The notes under the pieces: generated by a model | What the model saw: the letters and a program-made list of their open reading frames with translations, nothing else | Databases searched by the model: none | Told to the model about the DNA's origin: nothing | Part shown: positions 10,436 to 53,704 of the stretch, piece by piece | How positions within the stretch are numbered: the stretch's first letter is position 1 | How the letters are laid out: every line of letters starts with the position of its first letter | Translations under genes and position numbers: made by a program | Assembly: GCF_007997225.1 (NCBI RefSeq) | Contig: NZ_VORM01000004.1 | Coordinates: 248,001-312,000 of the forward strand | Length of the DNA: 64,000 nucleotides | Source: Subsaximicrobium wynnwilliamsii | Lineage (GTDB): Bacteria > Bacteroidota > Bacteroidia > Flavobacteriales > Flavobacteriaceae | Reading direction: 5' to 3'

Positions 10436-10873
10436 TTAATTTTTGTCATGCCTCAGTTTATGATAATAAAATGCAGGCAACAGTAATAGCAATGGAAGGG
10501 GCTGAATCAAAAATCGCCGAACGTTGAAAAAAAGGTAATAATCCTCTTGGCGCGGATGGATCACGAAATACAAAAAGACTAAAATCAACAGCACATAAGC
10601 GATGCTGAAAATGAGTGTTGAAAATTTCAGGATAGACACATCCTTGAAAAACAAGTAGATGATGCCCAATGACAACGCAGAATTCAAAACATATCTTAGG
10701 CTTGTAAATAAGGTTAGCTTCAAAATCTCCCTGTTTGGAAAATCCATGTACAGATAGTCATTTTTAAAAAACAAGAGGTAAGGATCATAAAAGAGCTCAT
10801 TCTCAAACACCCTAACCAGCACCAGCAAGCCAAACAATACCAACAGCACTATGAAACGAATGGGGTTACGCAT
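10436..10873 (-). CDS. Exosortase F system-associated membrane protein
   Basis: A 145-residue protein with about four hydrophobic helices. It matches the small partner protein always found next to exosortase F (RVFENELFYDPYLLFFK near the N-terminus). It overlaps xrtF by eight bases, so the two are translationally coupled. Function is unknown. It presumably assists the transpeptidase in the inner membrane. Confidence 0.85.
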   Translation of the reverse strand: MRNPIRFIVLLVLFGLLVLVRVFENELFYDPYLLFFKNDYLYMDFPNREILKLTLFTSLRYVLNSALSLGIIYLFFKDVSILKFSTLIFSIAYVLLILVFLYFVIHPRQEDYYLFFNVRRFLIQPLPLLLLLPAFYYHKLRHDKN

Positions 10874-11417
10874 GGCGTTTCTTCAGTTTAGAAAATCGGT
10901 TGACCCAAAACATCCATAACAAAAATACCATCCCGTAGATGATCATGGGAAATATAACGGTATGGAGAATATCGCGTCGCCATGGATAATTATAGAGGCC
11001 AATGGTTAAAATAACAATGCGCATTAAATTGACCACGTAAATCAAAACACTGCCAGAGAGCATGTAAAAAAATGTGGTTTTCAGTTTCCCTGCAAAAGCA
11101 ATTATAAACGATACAAAGAGGATAATCACACTTACTGAGTTGCAACCTTCAATAATCCTTGCCAAATACTTGCCATTTACAATCACTTTCATGGAAGGCT
11201 CATCGGGATGAGGCAATACTTTGGCATCATAGCCAAAGGTGTTCAACAGTTCATCACTTTGTTTGGCAACGAGATTGGTAATATAATCTGGATAATATAT
11301 CGACCCATTTGAAAACTCCAAGTACAGATTATAGGCAAAAGAAAGCACAAAATAAACCGCTAGAAACGTGAGGATAAATACTACAACCGATTTATATTTT
11401 AAAAAAAGAGATTTCAA
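10866..11417 (-). CDS. xrtF: Exosortase family protein XrtF
   Basis: A 183-residue multi-pass membrane cysteine protease/transpeptidase. The exosortase triad is visible: Cys92 in EGCNSVSV, Arg133 in NLMRIV and His152 in DILHTV. Exosortases recognise a C-terminal sorting signal on exported proteins and cleave or transfer them. No obvious target with such a signal lies in this window. The start is TTG at 11417, since the in-frame upstream codons contain no ATG. Two-gene operon with the associated membrane protein. Confidence 0.9.
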   Translation of the reverse strand: MKSLFLKYKSVVVFILTFLAVYFVLSFAYNLYLEFSNGSIYYPDYITNLVAKQSDELLNTFGYDAKVLPHPDEPSMKVIVNGKYLARIIEGCNSVSVIILFVSFIIAFAGKLKTTFFYMLSGSVLIYVVNLMRIVILTIGLYNYPWRRDILHTVIFPMIIYGMVFLLWMFWVNRFSKLKKRHA

Positions 11418-15614: not shown

Positions 15615-16643
15615 ATGGGATTTTTTGACTTCTTAACTGAAGAAATAGCCATAGACTTAGGAACCGCGAACACACTAATTATCCACAATGACAAAGTTGT
15701 GGTGGATAGTCCATCTATAGTTGCAAGAGATAGAATTTCAGGAAAAATCATTGCCGTTGGTATGGAAGCCAACATGATGCAGGGTAAAACCCATGAAAAC
15801 ATAAAGACCATAAGACCTTTAAAAGATGGTGTTATTGCCGATTTTGATGCGTCTGAGCAGATGATAAGCATGTTCATCAAGAACATTCCTGCACTCAAGA
15901 AGAAATTGTTCACACCAGCTTTGCGTATGGTGGTTTGTATTCCCTCAGGCATTACCGAAGTGGAAATGCGTGCGGTAAAAGAATCCTGTGAACGTGTGAA
16001 TGGCAAAGAAGTCTATTTGATCCATGAGCCAATGGCAGCAGCGATTGGGATTGGGATTGACATCATGCAACCCAAGGGGAACATGATTGTAGATATTGGC
16101 GGTGGCACCACTGAAATTGCGGTTATCGCATTGGGTGGCATTGTTTGTGACAAATCGGTTAAGGTTGCTGGCGACGTATTTACCAACGACATTATTTATT
16201 ACATGCGCACCCAACACAACCTTTATGTTGGTGATCGCACTGCGGAAAAAATAAAAATTCAAATTGGAGCGGCTACGGAAGATCTCGATCTTCCACCAGA
16301 AGAAATGAGCGTTCAAGGTCGTGACTTATTGACAGGCAAGCCAAAACAAGTTCAAATTTCTTACCGTGAGATTGCCAAAGCACTCGATAAATCCATTTTG
16401 AGAATTGAGGACTCTGTCATGGAAACCTTATCGCAAACCCCTCCAGAATTGGCAGCCGATATTTACAATACCGGCATATACCTCGCTGGTGGTGGATCGA
16501 TGTTAAGAGGCTTGGACAAACGTCTTTCCCAAAAAACCGATCTTCCCGTTTACATTGCTGAAGACCCACTTAGAGCAGTGGTTAGAGGTACAGGTATCGC
16601 TCTTAAAAACCTTGCGAGATTCAAGAGCATATTGATTAAGTAA
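15615..16643 (+). CDS. mreB: Rod-shape-determining protein MreB
   Basis: A 342-residue bacterial actin. It shows phosphate-binding loop 1 (DLGTANTLI, near residue 14), phosphate 2 (DIGGGTTEIAVI, near 160) and the adenosine motif (YLAGGGSMLRGL, near 295). It polymerises under the inner membrane and guides the elongasome. First gene of a five-gene cluster followed by mreC after 19 bases. Confidence 0.97.
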   Translation: MGFFDFLTEEIAIDLGTANTLIIHNDKVVVDSPSIVARDRISGKIIAVGMEANMMQGKTHENIKTIRPLKDGVIADFDASEQMISMFIKNIPALKKKLFTPALRMVVCIPSGITEVEMRAVKESCERVNGKEVYLIHEPMAAAIGIGIDIMQPKGNMIVDIGGGTTEIAVIALGGIVCDKSVKVAGDVFTNDIIYYMRTQHNLYVGDRTAEKIKIQIGAATEDLDLPPEEMSVQGRDLLTGKPKQVQISYREIAKALDKSILRIEDSVMETLSQTPPELAADIYNTGIYLAGGGSMLRGLDKRLSQKTDLPVYIAEDPLRAVVRGTGIALKNLARFKSILIK

Positions 16644-16662
16644 TAGGGAACAACCACATCAC

Positions 16663-17490
16663 ATGCAACAAATTATCAATTTTGTTATTAGAAACAAGAA
16701 TTTCCTTTTGTTTCTGTTGCTGTTTGGAATTTCTCTGGGGCTAACCATTCAATCCCATTCTTACCACAGAAGCAAGTTCATCAATTCTGCCAATTTTTTT
16801 ACAGGCGGTATTTATGAGCGTGCCAATGAGGTTACAACGTATTTTACCCTAAAGGAACAAAATCAGCAATTGTTTGAGGAGAATCGCAGGTTGCGCAGCC
16901 AAATTTTCAATCCAAGCGATTCTTTGCAAAAAGAGCCAATCACATTGGATACGAGTTCAACAGGTGCCCTATATCGGTTTAATAAAGCGAAAGTCATAAA
17001 CAACAATTACAGCTTGAGCAAAAATTATTTGACCCTTAATATTGGAAAAAATGACAGCATTACCGAAGATATGGGAGTCATTACCTCAAAAGGCATCGTT
17101 GGTATCATTGACAATACCTCAGCAAATTATTCGCGAGTGCTTTCTATTTTAAACAGTAGAAGTAGAATCAATGCACAATTGAAGCAGTCTAATCATATTG
17201 GCTCTTTGAGGTGGGACGCTAAATCATCAGAAATTGTACAACTTGTAGACGTCTCAAAATTTGCCCCTGTAAAGGTAGGCGACACGATTACCACTGGAGG
17301 CCAGTCGGCCATATTTCCCAAGGGCATTCCTATTGGCTCCATCGTGTCCTTTGACATCGATCCTGGTGGAGATACTTACACGATAAGTGTAAAACTTTTT
17401 AACGATATGACCAGTTTGTATCACGTATATATTATAAAAAACAAAGATGCTTCAGAGATAAAAGCATTAGAAAACCAGTTGAGTGAATAG
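16663..17490 (+). CDS. mreC: Rod-shape-determining protein MreC
   Basis: A 275-residue bitopic protein. One N-terminal membrane helix (about 12-28) and a short coiled coil (about 60-85) precede the periplasmic beta domain (about 110-265; KGIVGIIDNTSANYSRVLSI). It links MreB to PBP2 and RodA in lateral wall synthesis. It overlaps mreD by eight bases. Confidence 0.95.
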   Translation: MQQIINFVIRNKNFLLFLLLFGISLGLTIQSHSYHRSKFINSANFFTGGIYERANEVTTYFTLKEQNQQLFEENRRLRSQIFNPSDSLQKEPITLDTSSTGALYRFNKAKVINNNYSLSKNYLTLNIGKNDSITEDMGVITSKGIVGIIDNTSANYSRVLSILNSRSRINAQLKQSNHIGSLRWDAKSSEIVQLVDVSKFAPVKVGDTITTGGQSAIFPKGIPIGSIVSFDIDPGGDTYTISVKLFNDMTSLYHVYIIKNKDASEIKALENQLSE

Positions 17491-45210: not shown

Positions 45211-45245
45211 TTGGTTCTTGCCTCTTGCTTCATGCTTCTTGGTTT
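45211..45245 (+). repeat. Heptad tandem array before kynU
   Basis: Five degenerate 7-base units (ttggttc, ttgcctc, ttgcttc, atgcttc, ttggttt) end 13 bases before the kynU frame. Confidence 0.7.
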
Positions 45246-45258
45246 ATAATCCTTATTT

Positions 45259-46551
45259 TTGATAAAACCATTAAAACCAAAACACTTGTCCAACTATAAA
45301 CTCGGATTGGATTTTGCCAAAGCACAAGACCGAAATGATCCGCTTGGCCATTTCAGGGACCAATTTCACATCCCTAAAGATAAAAATGGAAAGGCACTTA
45401 TTTATATGACTGGTAATTCTCTAGGGTTACAGCCAAAAATCACCAAAGACTATATCCATCAAGAATTGGAAGATTGGGCCAATTTAGGCGTAGAAGGTCA
45501 TACCGATGGAAAACACCCCTGGCTGAACTATCACGAACTTCTCACTGAAACCATGGCACACATCGTTGGCGCCAAACCCATTGAGACCATTGTGATGAAT
45601 TCACTTACCGTCAATCTGCATTTGATGATGGTAAGTTTTTACCAACCCACAAAAAAACGTTATAAAATTTTAATAGAGGCAGATGCCTTCCCGAGTGATA
45701 AATATGCGGTGCAATCGCAATTGCGCCATCACGGTTTTGATGACCAAGAAGGGCTCATCCAATGGAAAGCCCCCGAAGGCGAGGAATTGGCGAATTATGA
45801 GGATTTAGAAACACTGCTCAAAACCCATGGTGACGAGATTGCACTTGTGATGATTGGTGGCGTTAATTATTATACTGGTCAGTTTTTTGACTTGAAGCGC
45901 ATTGCCAAATTAGCGCATGCTTATGGCTGCATGGTAGGTTTTGACTGCGCGCATGGCGCGGGCAATGTAAAGCTGAATCTACACGATTCTGGTGCAGATT
46001 TCGCCGTATGGTGTTCTTACAAATATTTAAATTCCGGACCAGGAAGTTTGGCTGGCGCTTTTATTCACGAGCGTCATGCCCATAAAAAAGAGCTCAACCG
46101 TTTTACGGGTTGGTGGTCGCATAATAAAGAAAAACGTTTTAAGATGCGTGATGATTTTGACCAATTAACAGGAGCTGAAGGCTGGCAGCTCAGCAATCCA
46201 ACAATTCTTTCCATGGCAGCCATAAGGGCTTCTTTGGATGTTTTCAAGGATGCTGGTTTTGATAGGCTTTGTGAAAAATCGAATGAGCTTACAGGCTATT
46301 TTGAATTTTTAATCAATGAGCTGAACAATTCTGAACTAAAAATCATTACCCCAAGCGACCCGAATGCACGTGGATGCCAATTGTCCATTCAAGTAAAAAA
46401 TGCCAATAAAAACCTACATAAAAAATTAACGGAAGCCGGCGTGATCAGTGATTGGCGCGAACCAGATGTGATTAGATGTGCACCAACGCCGCTTTATAAT
46501 TCGTTTGAAGATGTCTTTAACTTAGTGGAAAGGCTAAAGAACATCATTTGA
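45259..46551 (+). CDS. kynU: Kynureninase
   Basis: A 430-residue PLP enzyme that splits kynurenine (or 3-hydroxykynurenine) into anthranilate (or 3-hydroxyanthranilate) and alanine. Motifs: YMTGNSLGLQP, a PLP-phosphate segment (NSLTVNLHLMM), GFDCAHGAGN and the cofactor Lys255 in CSYKYLNSGPGS. No ATG lies near the 5' end. TTG at 45259 is taken; TTG at 45289 (MSNYKLGLDF) is an alternative, and a TATTTTTG box at 45254-45261 would favour the later one. First gene of the kynurenine cluster. Confidence 0.93.
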   Translation: MIKPLKPKHLSNYKLGLDFAKAQDRNDPLGHFRDQFHIPKDKNGKALIYMTGNSLGLQPKITKDYIHQELEDWANLGVEGHTDGKHPWLNYHELLTETMAHIVGAKPIETIVMNSLTVNLHLMMVSFYQPTKKRYKILIEADAFPSDKYAVQSQLRHHGFDDQEGLIQWKAPEGEELANYEDLETLLKTHGDEIALVMIGGVNYYTGQFFDLKRIAKLAHAYGCMVGFDCAHGAGNVKLNLHDSGADFAVWCSYKYLNSGPGSLAGAFIHERHAHKKELNRFTGWWSHNKEKRFKMRDDFDQLTGAEGWQLSNPTILSMAAIRASLDVFKDAGFDRLCEKSNELTGYFEFLINELNNSELKIITPSDPNARGCQLSIQVKNANKNLHKKLTEAGVISDWREPDVIRCAPTPLYNSFEDVFNLVERLKNII

Positions 46552-46635
46552 AAATTGGGTTGGTAATTTATAAAGCTATCCAAATTTAACCTTACGTATT
46601 GATCGCGCGATTTTAATTGAAACTAAAAACATAAG

Positions 46636-46655
46636 ATTCCTGCTTTCGCAGGAAT
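46636..46655. repeat. Palindromic repeat before kmo (attcctgc / gcaggaat)
   Basis: Eight-base perfect arms with a tttc loop, ending six bases before the kmo start codon. The hairpin could cover the translation start region. Confidence 0.85.
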
Positions 46656-46661
46656 AGAGCT

Positions 46662-48059
46662 ATGAAAAAACAACAAAATGTACTTATTATTGGCGCAGGA
46701 CTTTGCGGAAGCTTGCTCGCCTTGAGATTGGGCCAACGCGGCTATAATGTGAGCGTTTATGAGATGCGCCCAGATTTACGCAAAACGAAGATTTCGGCAG
46801 GTCGCTCCATCAATTTGGCTTTTTCCGATCGTGGCAGCAAAGCCATTCAATTGGTAGGCATGGGAGACCAAGTGGAAAAACTCTGCATCCCCATGAATGG
46901 TCGAATGCTCCACGATGAGAAAGGCGATACCATTATGTCCAAGTACAGCGGGCGCGAGCATGAATATATCAATTCCATTCCCAGGGGAGAACTCAATGCA
47001 TTGCTTTTAACCGAAGCCGAGAAACATGAGAATGTAAACATTCACTTCAACAAGAAATGCTTATCGGTTGATTTCGAAAAAACCACGGTGCTTTTTGAGG
47101 ATTATCAAACTAAAAAAGAGTTTGTTGAAGATGCCGATGTGATCATCGCCACCGATGGCGCAGGTTCAGCCTTGAGAAAAAGCTATTATTTGGCAAATAA
47201 ATTCCTGTTCAGTTTTTCACAGGAGTATTTGACCCATGGCTATAAGGAACTCTCCATTCTCCCTGCGGAAAATGGCGGATACAAGACTTACAAAAACGCC
47301 TTGCACATTTGGCCTCGCGGTAATTTCATGCTTATTGCACTGCCAAATCTCGACGGAAGCTTTACAGTAACCTTATTCTTGAGTTACGATGAAGGCGACT
47401 ACAATTTCAATAATTTGACGACGCCTGAAAAAGTGACGGAATTTTTTCAGAAGGAATTTCCCGACACTTTAGAACTCATGCCAAATCTGGTGGATGACTT
47501 CTTTGAAAATCCAACTGCGCCCTTAGGCACGGTTAAATGTTCTCCTTGGCATTACAAAGGCAACACCCTATTGATGGGCGATTCCGCACATGCCATCGTC
47601 CCTTTTTACGGACAAGGCATGAACGCTTCCTTTGAAGACGTCGTGGAATTTGACCAAGTCTTAGACCAAAATTTAGACTCATGGGAAGCCATTTTTGAAA
47701 CCTACGAGACGAACCGTAAAAAAGACACCGATGCCATTGCCGATTTAGCCATCGACAATTTCTATGAGATGAAAGGCCACGTTGCCAATCCTATTTTTCA
47801 GGACAAACGCAAAATTGAAATGGCTCTGGAAAAAGAATTTCCACAGGACTATTCCTCAAAGTATAGTTTGGTTACTTTTAACGAAGACATTGGCTATCGC
47901 GAAGCCATGCTGCGAGGTCGCGCTCAAGATAAAGCGATATTGAACATGTTAAGTGATGGCTTGATTTCAAGTTCAGATGATTTGAACATCCTATTGAAAA
48001 AAATCACAGACGCTACCAACGCGATTCTTGAGGATGATAAGATTGCGGGATTAATTTAG
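46662..48059 (+). CDS. kmo: Kynurenine 3-monooxygenase
   Basis: A 465-residue FAD-dependent aromatic hydroxylase. Rossmann motif GAGLCGSLLALRLGQRG (about 11-27), ATDGAGSALR and the FAD ribityl motif LLMGDSAHAIVPFYGQG (about 304-320). It hydroxylates kynurenine to 3-hydroxykynurenine with NADPH and O2. The C-terminal region may be membrane-associated, as in homologues. It lies 110 bases after kynU. Confidence 0.95.
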   Translation: MKKQQNVLIIGAGLCGSLLALRLGQRGYNVSVYEMRPDLRKTKISAGRSINLAFSDRGSKAIQLVGMGDQVEKLCIPMNGRMLHDEKGDTIMSKYSGREHEYINSIPRGELNALLLTEAEKHENVNIHFNKKCLSVDFEKTTVLFEDYQTKKEFVEDADVIIATDGAGSALRKSYYLANKFLFSFSQEYLTHGYKELSILPAENGGYKTYKNALHIWPRGNFMLIALPNLDGSFTVTLFLSYDEGDYNFNNLTTPEKVTEFFQKEFPDTLELMPNLVDDFFENPTAPLGTVKCSPWHYKGNTLLMGDSAHAIVPFYGQGMNASFEDVVEFDQVLDQNLDSWEAIFETYETNRKKDTDAIADLAIDNFYEMKGHVANPIFQDKRKIEMALEKEFPQDYSSKYSLVTFNEDIGYREAMLRGRAQDKAILNMLSDGLISSSDDLNILLKKITDATNAILEDDKIAGLI

Positions 48060-48060
48060 A

Positions 48061-48185
48061 AGCCCACCCTAACCCTACCTAAGGAAGGGAACTGTTGCGG
48101 CAAAACTTTTATAAAAAATGCTTACCGGCCCGAGTAAGTGTTCCTTCCCTTTGGGAAGGGTATTCCGATAGCTATGGAAAGGGCT
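48061..48185. repeat. Paired inverted repeat elements between kmo and the RidA-type gene
   Basis: An element agcccaccctaaccctacct... (48061-48092) and an inverse-related element ending ...ggaaagggct (48141-48185) bracket the junction. The second contains ttccctttgggaa and ccgatagctatgg palindromes. Similar elements occur at 50456-50578 and 51369-51404. Confidence 0.75.
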
Positions 48186-48199
48186 TAATTTTTTAAGAT

Positions 48200-48649
48200 A
48201 TGAATGAAAAAGACACAACATCAGAAGGCAGCGTTGTAACGCCAAGAGGCGCTTATCCGCACGTGAAACAAGTAGGCGATTTTATCTTTGTTTCGGGCAC
48301 CAGTTCACGACGGGCAGACAATACGATTGCGGGCGTGGATCTCATTGACGACATGGGCACCAAGCACCTAAATGCCGAGGTGCAAACCCGCGAAGTCCTA
48401 AAAAACATTGATAGAAACCTTCAAAAAGTGGGCGCTTCACTTAAGGATGTGGTTGATGTGACTTCGTTTTTGGTCAATATGAATGATTTTGCGGGCTACA
48501 ATAAAGCCTACGCCGAATTTTTCAATAAAGAAACAGGACCAGCAAGAACCACAGTCGCCGTGCACCAATTACCACATCCCGATTTGGTGGTGGAGATAAA
48601 GGTCATGGCTTATAAACCCATTCCTGCGAACTTGCCTACCGATGGATAG
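48200..48649 (+). CDS. RidA-family protein, probable 2-aminomuconate deaminase
   Basis: A 149-residue RidA/YjgF fold protein of the AmnD/NbaF type ([19 protein letters not shown], ...[13 protein letters not shown] with the conserved Arg, VEIKVMAY). In this cluster it should hydrolyse 2-aminomuconate to 4-oxalocrotonate and ammonia. The last nine codons (IPANLPTDG) and the stop lie inside a 40-base repeat element that recurs after the HAAO gene. The family is sure; the substrate is inferred from the neighbours. Confidence 0.88.
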
Positions 48650-48659
48650 AGACAGGAAT
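48620..48659. repeat. 40-base palindromic element overlapping the RidA-type gene end
   Basis: Outer arms attcctg / caggaat, 40 bases long. It aligns without gaps with the element at 52266-52305 (31 of 40 identical). It encodes residues 141-149 and the stop codon. Confidence 0.8.
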
Positions 48660-48729
48660 CTCATTCTTATAAACAATAATATCGTAAATGATTAAAGTTA
48701 ATAATATTATTGTAAAGTAAAAATATCAA

Positions 48730-48909
48730 AGACCTCACAGGTTTTTAAAACCTGTGAGGTCTAACAAACTCAATCACTATGGACTTCAAGTCCATAGATT
48801 TTTTGAAACAGACTGAAAGTCTGTTGAATTCGTGAAATGAATAATATCTCATTGTGAACGCTTTTAGATAACAAACGGTTTCGTGAAAACCTGCCTACCG
48901 GCTAGGCAG
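48730..48909. repeat. Four successive palindromes between the RidA-type and ALDH genes
   Basis: Within the 360-base gap: arms agacctcacaggtttt / aaaacctgtgaggtct (48730-48762), ctatggactt / aagtccatag (48777-48797), aacagact / agtctgtt (48807-48825) and ctgccta / taggcag (48891-48909). The last is followed by ttcgtggc as in the element at 6981. None has a proper T run on both sides. Confidence 0.85.
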
Positions 48910-49010
48910 ATTCGTGAAATTCGTGGCAAAACATTTTTAGAAGCTAGAGCGAAATGCACTAAAGTACATAGTTTTAACTCTATTTGAGACCAATAAAAAT
49001 TACTGAATCC

Positions 49011-50453
49011 GTGGCCAACATAAAAAACTACATCAACGGAAGTTTTCAAAACCCCATCAACAATGAATGGATAGATAACTATAATCCGTCTAATGGCGAA
49101 GTGTATGGGCAAATCCCAAGCTCATCACAAGAAGATGTGGAACAGGCCTATCAAGCAGCAAAATCGGCATTTCCAAAATGGTCACAAACAACCCTAGACG
49201 AGCGCAGTCGCATCCTCATCAAGATATCAGAATTGTTGGAAGCACATCTTCAAGCGTTTGCTGAAGCCGAAAGTAAGGATAATGGCAAACCTATTTCAGT
49301 AGCGAAATCGGTCGATATCCCAAGAGCAGCGAGTAATTTTCGGTTTTTCGGGAATGCGATTACACAATTCGCCAGCGAAAGCCATGAAAGCATAGGACAA
49401 AACGCCATTAATTACACCTTGCGCCAACCCATTGGTGTGGTGGGCTGTATTTCGCCTTGGAACCTCCCACTCTATTTATTTACTTGGAAAATCGCTCCAG
49501 CCATCGCCGCCGGTAATTGTGTGGTGGCAAAGCCCAGCGAAATCACACCCATGACCGCTTTTCTTTTAGGCGACCTCTGCAACAAAGCCGGACTTCCAAA
49601 AGGGGTGCTCAACATTGTTCATGGTTTGGGAGGCACAACCGGGCAAGCCATTGTGGAGCACCCAAACATCAAGGCCATTAGTTTTACGGGTGGCACAGCA
49701 ACAGGCGCTCACATTGCTAGAGTGGCAGCGCCAATGTTCAAGAAACTATCTTTGGAATTGGGCGGGAAAAACCCCAACATCATATTTGCCGATTGCGATT
49801 ATGAGGATATGCTCGACACCACGGTTAGGTCTTCATTCGCCAATCAAGGTCAGATTTGCCTCTGCGGAAGCAGGATTTTTGTGGAAGCCGCCATTTACGA
49901 ACAATTCAAGACGGATTTTGTGGCCAAGGTCAAGCAGCTTCGTGTTGGGCATCCTTCCGAAGCAACTACAGATATCGGGGCATTGGTTTCCAAAGCACAC
50001 CTCGAAAAAGTAAAGCAGTACATCAAAATTGCAAAAGAAGAACACGGAAGCATCCTTTGTGGTGGCAATGAAGTTACAATCGAAGGATTTGAAAGCGGCT
50101 ATTATTTGGAGCCAACAGTTATTGAAGTCCAAACCAACGACTGTCGCGTCAACCAAGAAGAAATTTTTGGGCCAGTAGTAAGCATTATGCCTTTTGAAAC
50201 TGAAGCAGACGTTTTAACTATGGCCAATGATGTCAAATACGGACTTTCGGCCACCCTTTGGACCAATGATTTAAAGCGAACCATGCGTATGAGCAATCAA
50301 TTGCAAGCAGGCATTGTTTGGGTAAACACTTGGATGATGCGCGATTTAAGAACCCCTTTTGGAGGCATAAAAGCTTCAGGCGTGGGACGTGAAGGCGGTT
50401 TTGAGGCCTTACGGTTTTTTACCGAGGCTAAGAATGTGTGTATAAAATATTAA
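49011..50453 (+). CDS. Aldehyde dehydrogenase, probable 2-aminomuconate semialdehyde dehydrogenase
   Basis: A 480-residue NAD-dependent ALDH. Motifs: GCISPWNLPLYLFTWK, KPSEITPMTA, FTGGTATG, ELGGKNPNII and the catalytic Cys in GQICLCGSR. It is closest to 2-hydroxymuconic/2-aminomuconic semialdehyde dehydrogenases. Here it should oxidise 2-aminomuconate 6-semialdehyde. GTG at 49011 gives the standard start (MANIKNYINGSF). A TTG at 48984 would add nine residues. Confidence 0.9.
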   Translation: MANIKNYINGSFQNPINNEWIDNYNPSNGEVYGQIPSSSQEDVEQAYQAAKSAFPKWSQTTLDERSRILIKISELLEAHLQAFAEAESKDNGKPISVAKSVDIPRAASNFRFFGNAITQFASESHESIGQNAINYTLRQPIGVVGCISPWNLPLYLFTWKIAPAIAAGNCVVAKPSEITPMTAFLLGDLCNKAGLPKGVLNIVHGLGGTTGQAIVEHPNIKAISFTGGTATGAHIARVAAPMFKKLSLELGGKNPNIIFADCDYEDMLDTTVRSSFANQGQICLCGSRIFVEAAIYEQFKTDFVAKVKQLRVGHPSEATTDIGALVSKAHLEKVKQYIKIAKEEHGSILCGGNEVTIEGFESGYYLEPTVIEVQTNDCRVNQEEIFGPVVSIMPFETEADVLTMANDVKYGLSATLWTNDLKRTMRMSNQLQAGIVWVNTWMMRDLRTPFGGIKASGVGREGGFEALRFFTEAKNVCIKY

Positions 50454-50455
50454 GG

Positions 50456-50578
50456 AGCCCACCCCAGCCCTCCCAAAGGGAGAGAGCCATTTTCGGGATT
50501 TATATTTGATTAGGAATAAAAATTTAATTGTAACTAAAAACAAAAAGTCCTCCCCTTGGGGAAAGATTTAGGATGGGA
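50456..50578. repeat. Paired inverted repeat elements between ALDH and SDR genes
   Basis: agcccaccccagccctccc (from 50457) and an inverse-related copy (50548-50578, agtcctccccttgggg... ggatgggat) fill the 126-base gap. Same family as at 48061. The second copy ends at the SDR start codon. Confidence 0.75.
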
Positions 50579-50579
50579 T

Positions 50580-51362
50580 ATGGATTTACAACTCAACAAC
50601 AAATACGCATTGGTCTGCGGCAGCACCTCAGGCATAGGAAAAGCAACCGCGATGGCATTGGCTGCGGAAGGCGTGCAAGTGACTTTGGTGGCTAGAAATG
50701 AAGATAAGCTAAAAGCGACCTTAAACGAACTGCCAAAACAGCGCAATCATGATTATATCGTGGCCGATTTTTCGAACCCGCAGCACTTAAAAACGGAAGT
50801 GGAAGCTTATATCAACAAACACCACGGGTTCCATATCTTGGTCAACAACACTGGAGGCCCAGCAGGTGGTCCCATTTTTTCTGCGGAAGTGGAGGAATTT
50901 GAAGCTGCTTTTACCCAACATTTGAAATGCAATCATATTTTGGCGCAGGCGATTGTACCGTTTATGAAGCGCGAATGCTTCGGAAGGATTATCAATGTGA
51001 TTTCCACTTCCGTAAAACAACCTTTAGACGGTCTTGGCGTAAGCAATACCATTAGAGGCGCGGTTGCCAATTGGAGTAAAACTCTGGCAAACGAATTGGG
51101 ACAATTTGGCATTACGGTAAATAACGTGCTCCCAGGAGCGACTGGAACCGGCCGCTTGAGCCAAATCATCAAGAACAAATCTGATAAAACCGGGAAAACC
51201 GAAGAAGAAGCTGCCAATGCCATGAAGAATGCTGTGCCGGCGAAACGTTTTGCCAAACCAGAGGAATTGGCAGATGCCATAACGTTTTTAGCGAGCGCCA
51301 GAGCTGGTTATATCAATGGTATTAATCTGCCCGTGGATGGCGGAAGAACTAAATCGCTGTAG
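50580..51362 (+). CDS. Short-chain dehydrogenase/reductase, divergent active site
   Basis: A 260-residue SDR with the NAD(P)-binding motif GSTSGIGKATA (about 13-23) and NNTGGPAGG. At the place of the catalytic YxxxK the sequence reads LGVSNTIRGAVANW, with Ser/Asn and Arg instead of Tyr and Lys. Such divergent SDRs are known. The role in the kynurenine pathway is unclear, since no step obviously needs it. The ATG at 50580 is preferred over a TTG at 50556 inside the repeat. Confidence 0.85.
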   Translation: MDLQLNNKYALVCGSTSGIGKATAMALAAEGVQVTLVARNEDKLKATLNELPKQRNHDYIVADFSNPQHLKTEVEAYINKHHGFHILVNNTGGPAGGPIFSAEVEEFEAAFTQHLKCNHILAQAIVPFMKRECFGRIINVISTSVKQPLDGLGVSNTIRGAVANWSKTLANELGQFGITVNNVLPGATGTGRLSQIIKNKSDKTGKTEEEAANAMKNAVPAKRFAKPEELADAITFLASARAGYINGINLPVDGGRTKSL

Positions 51363-51368
51363 AAGAAA

Positions 51369-51404
51369 AGCCCATCCCCGGCCCTTCCCTAAGGGAATGG
51401 AGCC
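51369..51404. repeat. Palindromic repeat after the SDR gene (agccca...ggagcc family)
   Basis: agcccatccccggcccttcc followed by an inverse-related part (aagggaatggagcc), same family as at 48061 and 50456. Confidence 0.7.
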
Positions 51405-51500
51405 ACTGCTCTGACGATAGCTACCCGAGCTAGACAATCCAAAGGAAAAGAACATTAATAGTTGCGCTGGCTTTATTGATTTTTACCAAGTTGAGAAAAT

Positions 51501-51533
51501 AGACCTGGCAGGTTTTTAAAACCTGTTAGGTCT
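51501..51533. repeat. Palindromic repeat, gacct...aggtc family
   Basis: Arms agacctggcaggttt / aaacctgttaggtct with one mismatched position. Third copy of the family at 44961 and 48730. Confidence 0.8.
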
Positions 51534-51638
51534 TTGTATATTAGTTGGATTACTTTAAAGAATGTAATTTCAATTATTATACTTAATTTTATTGAATTGA
51601 TTAATCTGCGTTAAGGATTGAAAGGTTTGTTTGAGCTC

Positions 51639-51674
51639 TCCCGATAATCCCGATAGTTATCGGGATTATCGGGA
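51639..51674. repeat. 36-base near-perfect palindrome before the HAAO gene
   Basis: Perfect 17-base arms (51639-51655 and 51658-51674) around a two-base centre, built from two copies of the cccgata / tatcggg motif seen at 58491. It ends 56 bases before the ATG at 51731. It could terminate, block or regulate the transcript. Confidence 0.9.
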
Positions 51675-51730
51675 AGCGAGCCTTGAAAGCCTGACCCTAT
51701 TTCGGGTAACGCCCAAAATATAATGAAAGC

Positions 51731-52264
51731 ATGAGTAAACTATATTCTCCCATAAATTTTAAAGCTTGGATTGAAGAAAATCGGCATTTATTGAAGCCAC
51801 CCGTTGGTAATAAAGTGGTCTGGAAAGATGGCGATTTTATCGTCATGGTTGTTGGTGGCCCAAACAATCGTAAGGATTATCATTATAATGAAACTCCAGA
51901 GTTTTTCTATCAAGTAGAAGGCGACATTGTTTTGAAGGTCATTGATGAGGGCGAGCCTAAGGACATTCATATAAAGGAAGGAGAGATTTTCCTGCTTCCC
52001 CCAAAAGTACCACATTCCCCGCAACGTGGCGCTAATACAGTAGGGTTGGTTATTGAATACAAACGACCTGATGGGATGAAAGATGCCTTGTTATGGTACT
52101 GCGAAAACTGCACCACCAAATTATACGAAGAAGATTTTAGCGTGGAGGATATTGAAACCGATATGCCAAAAATATTCGATAAATACTACGGTGACACAGA
52201 CAAACGCAAATGCCCCAATTGTGGGGAAGTGATGCAAGCACCTAAAAAAGTACAGGTAGAATAG
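51731..52264 (+). CDS. nbaC: 3-hydroxyanthranilate 3,4-dioxygenase
   Basis: A 177-residue cupin dioxygenase. The Fe(II) ligands are His51, Glu57 and His95; substrate residues Arg47, Arg99 and Glu110 are at the positions known in bacterial enzymes. A C-terminal rubredoxin-like site (Cys124, Cys127, Cys161, Cys164) marks the homodimeric bacterial form. It opens 3-hydroxyanthranilate to 2-amino-3-carboxymuconate semialdehyde. Stop directly followed by the 40-base palindromic element. Confidence 0.96.
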   Translation: MSKLYSPINFKAWIEENRHLLKPPVGNKVVWKDGDFIVMVVGGPNNRKDYHYNETPEFFYQVEGDIVLKVIDEGEPKDIHIKEGEIFLLPPKVPHSPQRGANTVGLVIEYKRPDGMKDALLWYCENCTTKLYEEDFSVEDIETDMPKIFDKYYGDTDKRKCPNCGEVMQAPKKVQVE

Positions 52265-52265
52265 A

Positions 52266-52305
52266 ATTCCTGAGTAATTGTCTGCCGATAGGCAGAGGCA
52301 GGAAT
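52266..52305. repeat. 40-base palindromic element after the HAAO gene
   Basis: Outer arms attcctg / caggaat and inner arms tctgcc / ggcaga (loop gata). Copy of the element overlapping the RidA-type gene end. Confidence 0.85.
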
Positions 52306-52365
52306 CTCTCGGCTGAAACCAAAATGAGCATAGGATTAAAAGTCAATCTCACTATGGGCCTTTCA

Positions 52366-52488
52366 AGATGAAGATGAAGACGAAGATGAAGACGAAGACG
52401 AAGATGAAGATGAAGATGAAGACGAAGATGAAGACGAAGACGAAGATGAAGATGAAGATGAAGACGAAGACGAAGATGAAGATGAAGG
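52366..52488. repeat. Period-6 array, units gaagat / gaagac
   Basis: About 20 hexamers mixing gaagat and gaagac. Frames through it encode only Met-Lys-Thr or Asp-Glu repeats, so it is treated as non-coding. It ends about 80 bases before the ACMSD start. Confidence 0.92.
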
Positions 52489-52567
52489 CTTTTATGTTAT
52501 TAGACACCATTCTGAATACCAATCAACCACCAACCAACTTTGACTACCAAGATAAATTGTTATAGCC

Positions 52568-53704
52568 ATGTCAACTGCAGATAAAAATGCGAATACTTCC
52601 GAAGCACCTAACAACACGCGACGGAAACTTAGAATCAACGGTCACTCCCATTTATTGCCTTATCCTGAGGAAATCCCGCAGTACATGAAAGACAAGGGTA
52701 TTTTTTGGGTTGATAAGGACCGAAAATTCATGCTGCAAAAAGATTGGAGTCGCCCTGTGACCGATTCCAGTTTCTTTTTAGATGAAAAATTGTCTTGGAT
52801 GGAGCGTTTTAAAATCGACCATGCGGTCGTTCTAAACCTTTCTCAACTTTACGGCAACGGACTTCGCGTGGAAGAAATGAAACAGGCCTTGCGGTTTCAA
52901 AATGATTATAATGCCAAGATTCAACGAGAGAATCCCAGTAAATTTACCTGTGGCTTTGTCGTGCATCCTGGTTTTGTTCGCGGTGCCTGTTGGGAAATTG
53001 AGCGTTGTGTGGAAGAATTGGGATTAAGGCTACTCTGCCTTCCAACCCACTATATGGACACCATTGGCACCTGGCGTTGTATTTTTGATGAAGAGAACGA
53101 ACCCATTTTTGAACTCGCCAATAAATATAATCTCGCGGTGGAGATCCATCCTTATGACGGCGAAAAATTCATCAAATTAGAAAATACAGCCTGGCGGTTT
53201 CATTTGATTTGGATGTTGGCACAGTGTGCCGATGCCTATCACTTTTTAACTTTGAATGGCTATCAAGACAAGTTCCCGAACATGCGCACCTGCTTCGCCC
53301 ATGGCGGACAATTAGCCCAAATAAATCTCGGGCGACGCATACAGGGTTTTGATGGCAGGCCTGACCTTTTTGAAGGCAAGAACCACCCAAGAAAAGCGGT
53401 TGGGCATAAAAATATTTTCTTTGATACTTTAGTTCACGATACTGGCGGACTTGAGCTCCTCATCAAAAACCAAGGTTCAAAACAAGTTTTGATGGGCTTA
53501 GACGACCCATATCCATTAGGAGAAATGGAAAGTACCCAACAATCTTCCTACCCCGGTAAAATCTTGGACCTCGCCGTGAAACGTGACATTATTGACGAAA
53601 AACAGCGCGATGCCATTTGGGAGGATAACGTAATACAATGGTTGTGCGGCGATGATCAAGCAGCGAAAGACAAGCTAATTGCTCGAATTTTAAGTAAATC
53701 TTAG
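52568..53704 (+). CDS. nbaD: 2-amino-3-carboxymuconate-6-semialdehyde decarboxylase (ACMSD)
   Basis: A 378-residue amidohydrolase-family decarboxylase. The metal-site start is NGHSHLLP (His26, His28), with VEIHPYDGEKF, CFAHGGQLAQIN and MGLDDPYPLGE further on. It converts ACMS to 2-aminomuconate semialdehyde, steering kynurenine carbon away from quinolinate. It is somewhat longer than the roughly 335-residue family norm because of its N-terminus. Last gene of the cluster. Confidence 0.93.
   Translation: MSTADKNANTSEAPNNTRRKLRINGHSHLLPYPEEIPQYMKDKGIFWVDKDRKFMLQKDWSRPVTDSSFFLDEKLSWMERFKIDHAVVLNLSQLYGNGLRVEEMKQALRFQNDYNAKIQRENPSKFTCGFVVHPGFVRGACWEIERCVEELGLRLLCLPTHYMDTIGTWRCIFDEENEPIFELANKYNLAVEIHPYDGEKFIKLENTAWRFHLIWMLAQCADAYHFLTLNGYQDKFPNMRTCFAHGGQLAQINLGRRIQGFDGRPDLFEGKNHPRKAVGHKNIFFDTLVHDTGGLELLIKNQGSKQVLMGLDDPYPLGEMESTQQSSYPGKILDLAVKRDIIDEKQRDAIWEDNVIQWLCGDDQAAKDKLIARILSKS

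Follow-up and report, generated by a model that had tools for sequence, protein, structure and literature searches.

Repeat-bearing junctions of a kynurenine gene cluster in Subsaximicrobium wynnwilliamsii and a Flavo-1-related RNA upstream of haao

The window analyzed here is a 64,000-base stretch of one contig (NZ_VORM01000004.1, positions 248,001 to 312,000) within the 4.9-Mb draft genome of Subsaximicrobium wynnwilliamsii (GCF_007997225.1), and it holds a seven-gene kynurenine cluster in the order kynU, kmo, ridA-type gene, ALDH, SDR, haao and acmsd. An original prediction had noticed a palindromic element at each of the six junctions, and proposed that the cluster was a recent assembly or that the hairpins set differential expression within one transcript. 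The reading that is considered likely here is that an old gene order was kept, that its junctions were widened by later repeats and that an inherited Flavo-1-like RNA stands before haao. The genes are listed below in positions of the window; the names kmo, ALDH and acmsd rest partly on the pathway context.

45259..46551, +, kynU, kynureninase; TIGR01814 above cut-off
46662..48059, +, FAD monooxygenase, kmo-like, taken from context as kynurenine 3-monooxygenase; top NCBIfam hit under cut-off
48200..48649, +, RidA-type gene; last nine codons and stop supplied by an inserted 43-base element
49011..50453, +, aldehyde dehydrogenase (ALDH; 2-aminomuconic semialdehyde dehydrogenase by context); GTG start inferred
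50580..51362, +, SDR gene
51731..52264, +, haao, 3-hydroxyanthranilate 3,4-dioxygenase; NF009763 and TIGR03037 above cut-off
52568..53704, +, acmsd-type decarboxylase gene, by pathway context; no NCBIfam match

The junctions were inventoried, and the copies of their elements were counted in a sample of 753,800 bases of the same genome (the 754-kb sample), in which repeats were taken from self-BLAST and genes from simple longest open reading frames.

46636..46655, unstranded, 20-base palindrome ATTCCTGCTTTCGCAGGAAT, ATTCCTGC before kmo; one place in the 754-kb sample, unclassified
48060..48186, unstranded, AGCCC inverted doublet of the kmo-ridA gap; begins directly behind the kmo stop codon
48620..48662, unstranded, 43-base ATTCCTGC...CAGGAATCTC element across the 3' end of ridA; first 30 bases within ridA
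48730..48762, unstranded, 33-base palindrome of the AGACCTCACAGGTTTTTAAAACCTGTGAGGTCT family (GACCT palindrome) before ALDH; 18 places in the sample
48766..48997, +, dispersed element (DE) of about 232 bases with several hairpins; ends ACTAAACC.../...GAGACCAATAAA
50454..50579, unstranded, AGCCC doublet of the ALDH-SDR gap; spans stop codon to start codon
51369..51401, +, single AGCCC element shortly behind the SDR stop
51500..51533, unstranded, AGACCTGGCAGG...CCTGTTAGGTCT palindrome (GACCT palindrome) before haao
51584..51591, +, TAATTTTA box, similar to the flavobacterial -7 box
51607..51718, +, Flavo-1-like structured RNA (type 2) before haao; 88.4 bits with model R1
51639..51674, unstranded, perfect 36-base palindrome, the tip of the P2 helix of this RNA
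52266..52308, unstranded, second 43-base element (ATTCCTG...CAGGAATCTC), adjoining the haao stop
52370..52483, unstranded, GAAGAT/GAAGAC (GAAGAY) hexamer array before acmsd; similar arrays elsewhere in the genome

The paired agccca elements predicted before the RidA-type gene and SDR were recovered as AGCCC inverted doublets, and the element and hexamer array before acmsd were likewise confirmed. The four palindromes described before ALDH turned out to belong mostly to one element, DE, which stops about 13 bases short of the inferred GTG start, while the three elements before haao are all present, with the 36-base palindrome being the helix tip of a conserved RNA and not a repeat. When the best-hairpin score of each gap was compared with 60 Markov shuffles, hairpins were clearly beyond chance in the pre-ALDH (score 16, 0/60) and pre-haao (score 17, 0/60) gaps only; the score was matched by 2, 7, 22 and 19 of the 60 shuffles for the gaps before kmo, ridA, SDR and acmsd, respectively. 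The idea of a palindromic element in every gap therefore holds insofar as candidate sequences are present at all six junctions, but these are of several kinds, two gaps alone have hairpins beyond chance and the AGCCC elements are doublets rather than strong hairpins. The junctions are best split into five that hold repeats common in the genome (the kmo palindrome being unclassified) and a sixth that holds repeats together with a conserved RNA. Arrays of GAAGAT/GAAGAC were also seen in the same genome at L120, approximately 10714-10896, and at L116, approximately 16585-16705.

In a search of 37 genomes, a kmo match was found in all 21 other genomes of the genus, and the seven genes stand in identical order in 18 of the 20 same-genus loci fetched; the remaining two, with six and two genes, are truncated where the fetched stretch or the contig ends. 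Gaps shorter than 60 bases occupy all six junctions in locus L085 and five of six in L083, and those of other relatives are wider, reaching 4.7 kb between ridA and ALDH. The shared order, together with the differing gap sizes, points to a gene order of long standing with variable gap content. At ridA, an insertion can be read directly, since the tail of the RidA of the window is encoded by the 43-base element, whereas the C-terminus in most relatives is MAYKKQ or similar; the RidA of L071 has a comparable but different C-terminal extension. The gene order would have been kept vertically within the genus, and the junctions would have been widened later by unrelated repeats (AGCCC doublets, CAGGAATCTC elements, GACCT palindromes, DE and the GAAGAY array), several of them placed directly behind a stop codon, which probably do little beyond being tolerated in the gaps.

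The junction before haao has a feature of a different kind. Of the 20 genus loci in which SDR and haao are both present, counting the window, 17 have the structured RNA upstream of haao, and it was sense-oriented in every case found. The end of its P1 helix lies 15-20 bases from the haao ATG in 15 of these 17 loci, and 57 bases from it in two. In 17/17, the TAATTTTA box begins 20-23 bases ahead of the RNA, against a chance expectation of 0.016 per 75-base search window; it resembles the -7 part of the flavobacterial -33/-7 promoter consensus, given as TTTG/TANNTTTG in the available part of PMC6847099. Among the 80 best of 583 haao loci in named or binned records, the RNA stands directly before haao in 27, of which 18 have exactly 9 bases between the match end and the haao start and 5 are Psychroserpens records already counted in the genus set. 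It was also found at haao in 13 of 29 further family loci, one same-genus, with possible overlap between these 29 and the 80 named records. Since the RNA is sense-oriented and lies behind a promoter-like box, separate expression of haao appears plausible from the sequence. In this respect the suggestion that hairpins set differential expression survives in part: the dispersed repeats lend it no support, and the haao junction alone has a conserved sense RNA behind such a box.

The structure of the type-2/3 form of this RNA was described with model R1, whose 21 pairs are all formed in six sequences (126/126 cells paired). In the 66 distinct sequences among 71 matches to R1, 96.8% of 1379 cells are paired, and the double-change cells number 211 compared with 58.3 in shuffles, none of 500 shuffles being as high. 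The helices of the type-2/3 form covary beyond column composition. The alignment contains 21 G-U, no A-C and 44 other non-pairs, and the presence of G-U without A-C makes the strand as read look like the constrained one. In the window copy, the 36-base palindrome stands where other copies have a short P2 tip, and GACCT-like palindromes occur within P3 in the copies of L067, L187 and L221; helix tips thus seem to accept palindromes, and the 36-base palindrome would merely lengthen P2. The case suggests how palindromic repeats may enter a structured RNA without breaking its fold. Other shapes were seen before haao, namely a further short-P2 form (GCAAGCTACCATGTAGCGCG or similar) in L276, L289 and L291 and an additional helix, nested between P1 and the inner one, in L080 and L082.

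The relation to Flavo-1 (Rfam RF01705) was assessed from the architecture and from orthologous copies. The RNA of the window shares with Flavo-1 the core GCGUUAAGGAUUGAA...GAAAGCCUGACC...AACGCC, the P1 helix, an inner AGG/CCU helix and a covarying P3, and differs in its P2 helix (AGGUUUGUUUGAGC...GCGAGCCU) with the 36-base extension. It gave no Rfam hits at the gathering threshold and, within 51300-51800, no hit bearing the name Flavo-1 at E<=10, and it is absent from the 16 Flavo-1 matches at E<=10 in its own genome. The type-2/3 form was likewise recognized by Rfam as Flavo-1 in none of 20 loci at gathering and in none of six at E<=0.1. Rfam does recognize type-1 copies as Flavo-1 (two checked), and the orthologous haao copies of L070 and L075, with which the RNA shares its common core and architecture, exceed the Rfam Flavo-1 cut-off, whereas those of L071, L076 and L083 do not. 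The RNA of the window is a Flavo-1-related form missed by Rfam here. In the available parts of the cited papers, Flavo-1 is marked 'n' for cis-regulation (PMC2864571) and is reported to lack a clear function and to match on either strand (PMC9723704), the latter unlike the strand bias within the genus and the near-fixed place before haao found here; the family is also treated in PMC9029176. In these sources it has stood without an assigned function since 2010, and a widespread, multicopy, covarying variant at a near-fixed distance before haao in many genera offers a concrete place to test one. Among the papers listed, none was relevant to a riboswitch with 3-hydroxyanthranilate.

R1 matches number 4-31 per genome across 21 genomes of the genus and 17 in the own genome, counts that are not purely type 2/3 and include low-scoring type-1 copies (L116:10326, 36.9 bits). 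Across the family, matches were obtained in 79 of 120 genomes at E<=1e-5, with a best E<=1e-12 in 59, and the type-2/3 P2 is present in the 28 best copies that were newly fetched (24 by script pattern and 4 by eye). For 40 high-scoring non-haao copies from four genus genomes, the gene facing the 3' end is on the opposite strand in 36, and the stop codon of that gene is at a distance of -5 to 7 bases in 28; when the genus copies are collapsed to distinct sites, the neighbor is on the opposite strand in 22/26, and for type 1 in 21/27. In other genera, with L274 set aside as a haao locus by its coordinates, 17 of 25 non-haao copies face a gene on the opposite strand, and in 8 of 25 a boundary of that gene is within -5 to 7 bases. 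The strand and stop-codon rule is weaker outside the genus, and within it haao is an exception in RNA orientation. An apparent flipping of orientation among orthologous Flavo-1 copies was rejected, the loci having been read in contig and not in match orientation, and the contexts were redone. Type-2/3 copies also precede the tmRNA gene in sense, at 12-16 bases, in L184, L190, L196 and L206 (element 1501 to about 1600), which probably represent one site in four genomes. Copies are found between the tRNA genes of long arrays, 5-10 bases from their neighbors, in L181, L183 and L204 (element 1501-1582).

In the favored reading, the haao junction would hold an inherited, sense-oriented Flavo-1-like RNA, preceded by a promoter-like box and followed by the start codon, and this RNA would be transcribed as the 5' leader of haao and influence haao expression. 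Several observations weigh against it. The RNA was not found before haao in the genus loci L066, L068 and L085 nor in 53 of the 80 named loci, so it seems to be dispensable, and in several genomes lacking it the SDR-haao gap is just 16-35 bases or so. Its conservation within the genus may be mere descent, and a multicopy family that is mostly antisense behind stop codons ill suits a dedicated regulator of haao. The alignment of 66 sequences was fitted to the structure of R1 itself, and 11 of the 21 G-U cells fall in one pair. Furthermore, the repeat families of the cluster occur in five of its six gaps compared with 6 of 158 co-directional 100-399-base gaps elsewhere (Fisher p 3e-6), by a test that is biased, its families having been defined from the cluster itself and two of them (P, F) being represented by one place each in the sample; some local accumulation of repeats is left unexplained. 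A more specific version, in which haao across Flavobacteriaceae has the type-2/3 RNA as a 5' leader that senses a metabolite or protein, this RNA having been recruited from a multicopy gene-end element and having tips that tolerate fold-preserving palindromes, is regarded as rather unlikely.

The sequence alone would be compatible with a regulator of haao or with an old DNA element retained there. The latter possibility, to which we give appreciable weight while leaning against it, is that the Flavo-1-like element is mobile or formerly mobile DNA, with single-strand hairpins recognized by an enzyme, and that an ancient insertion before haao was kept by descent with no effect on the gene. The copy numbers within the genus, the frequent closeness to the stop codon of the neighbor, the opposite-strand position of that neighbor, which is seen with type 1 as well, and the copies in tRNA arrays and before tmRNA would all suit such an element. 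Its weak points are the sense orientation and near-fixed start-codon distance at haao across genera while the P2 and P3 sequences turn over, the weaker strand bias outside the genus and the fact that no associated enzyme was found.

That the gap repeats are hairpins tuning gene expression within one transcript is improbable. Two very strong hairpins and the position of the doublets between stop and start codons speak for it, but relatives retain the cluster with short gaps, DE is confined to the own genome within the genus, and dispersed repeats are about equally frequent in other co-directional gaps. By self-BLAST, a dispersed repeat was present in 3/6 cluster gaps and in 59/158 of the co-directional gaps defined above, or in 42/107 when stretches picked for a repeat or transposase were left out. 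The repeat load of the cluster gaps is not exceptional by this test; repeats also occur in 9 of the 29 other scored gaps of the window and are hence not confined to the cluster. For gaps of 40-700 bases, a dispersed repeat was found in 102/264 co-directional, 26/59 convergent and 8/58 divergent gaps, and the scarcity in the divergent class indicates that repeats tend to stay out of promoter regions. A literature search for palindromic repeats in Flavobacteriaceae gave nothing relevant-looking among the 8 of 15 results listed.

As for the recent assembly of the cluster, with repeats marking its joints, the presence of some element at every joint is its sole support, and it is refuted for the genus, and practically to be discarded altogether, by the full seven-gene order in 18/20 loci of relatives, the other two being cut short. 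Elements in every gap of a cluster need not signal that it was assembled recently.

The origin of the dispersed elements was also considered. The palindromes before ALDH were at one point taken as unique to the cluster, which was rejected because DE has 35 BLAST matches in its own genome, some of them partial, with ends that agree in most of 14 aligned copies. DE was not found at E<=1e-6 in 20 of 21 same-genus genomes, and one weak partial match was obtained in G017. One DE copy lies approximately 40 bases behind a Y1_Tnp transposase gene, whose matches at E<=1e-10 are limited within the genus to the own genome (G000); that weak match aside, DE and its neighboring transposase both occur in G000 only of 22 same-genus genomes, which counts as a single event. 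In G027, which has the closest homologue of the transposase (71%), no DE was found at E<=1e-6 and no DE-like stretch lies beside the homologue. The data would fit the movement of DE by the Y1 transposase, in one case. The arrangement recalls Y1 systems of the REP-associated tyrosine transposase (RAYT) type, but DE is about 232 bases long.

Like repetitive extragenic palindromic (REP) sequences and REPINs, the AGCCC elements form inverted doublets in gaps, with two inverted copies in one gap as in a REPIN. They do not share the many genomic copies of REPINs: nhmmer gave 11 hits in the 754-kb sample at E<=1, and the cluster accounts for 5 of these. No transposase linked to the AGCCC elements was seen, the flanks of the six Y1_Tnp genes not having been individually searched for AGCCC. 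A Y1 transposase of 159 aa at L131:13834-14313 has motifs resembling TnpA_Y1 subclass 1.2, its DHIH, WQ and YIQNQHAHH being similar to the DH[IV]H, WQ and YIKNQKEHH given in the available part of PMC6006769, an assignment made by eye alone. According to that part of the same source, members of this subclass are generally without the typical terminal IS200 structures. A hairpin unit, GTCCTGAAGGGACGACAT, lies upstream of the L131 transposase, and the G027 homologue has a unit of the same kind.

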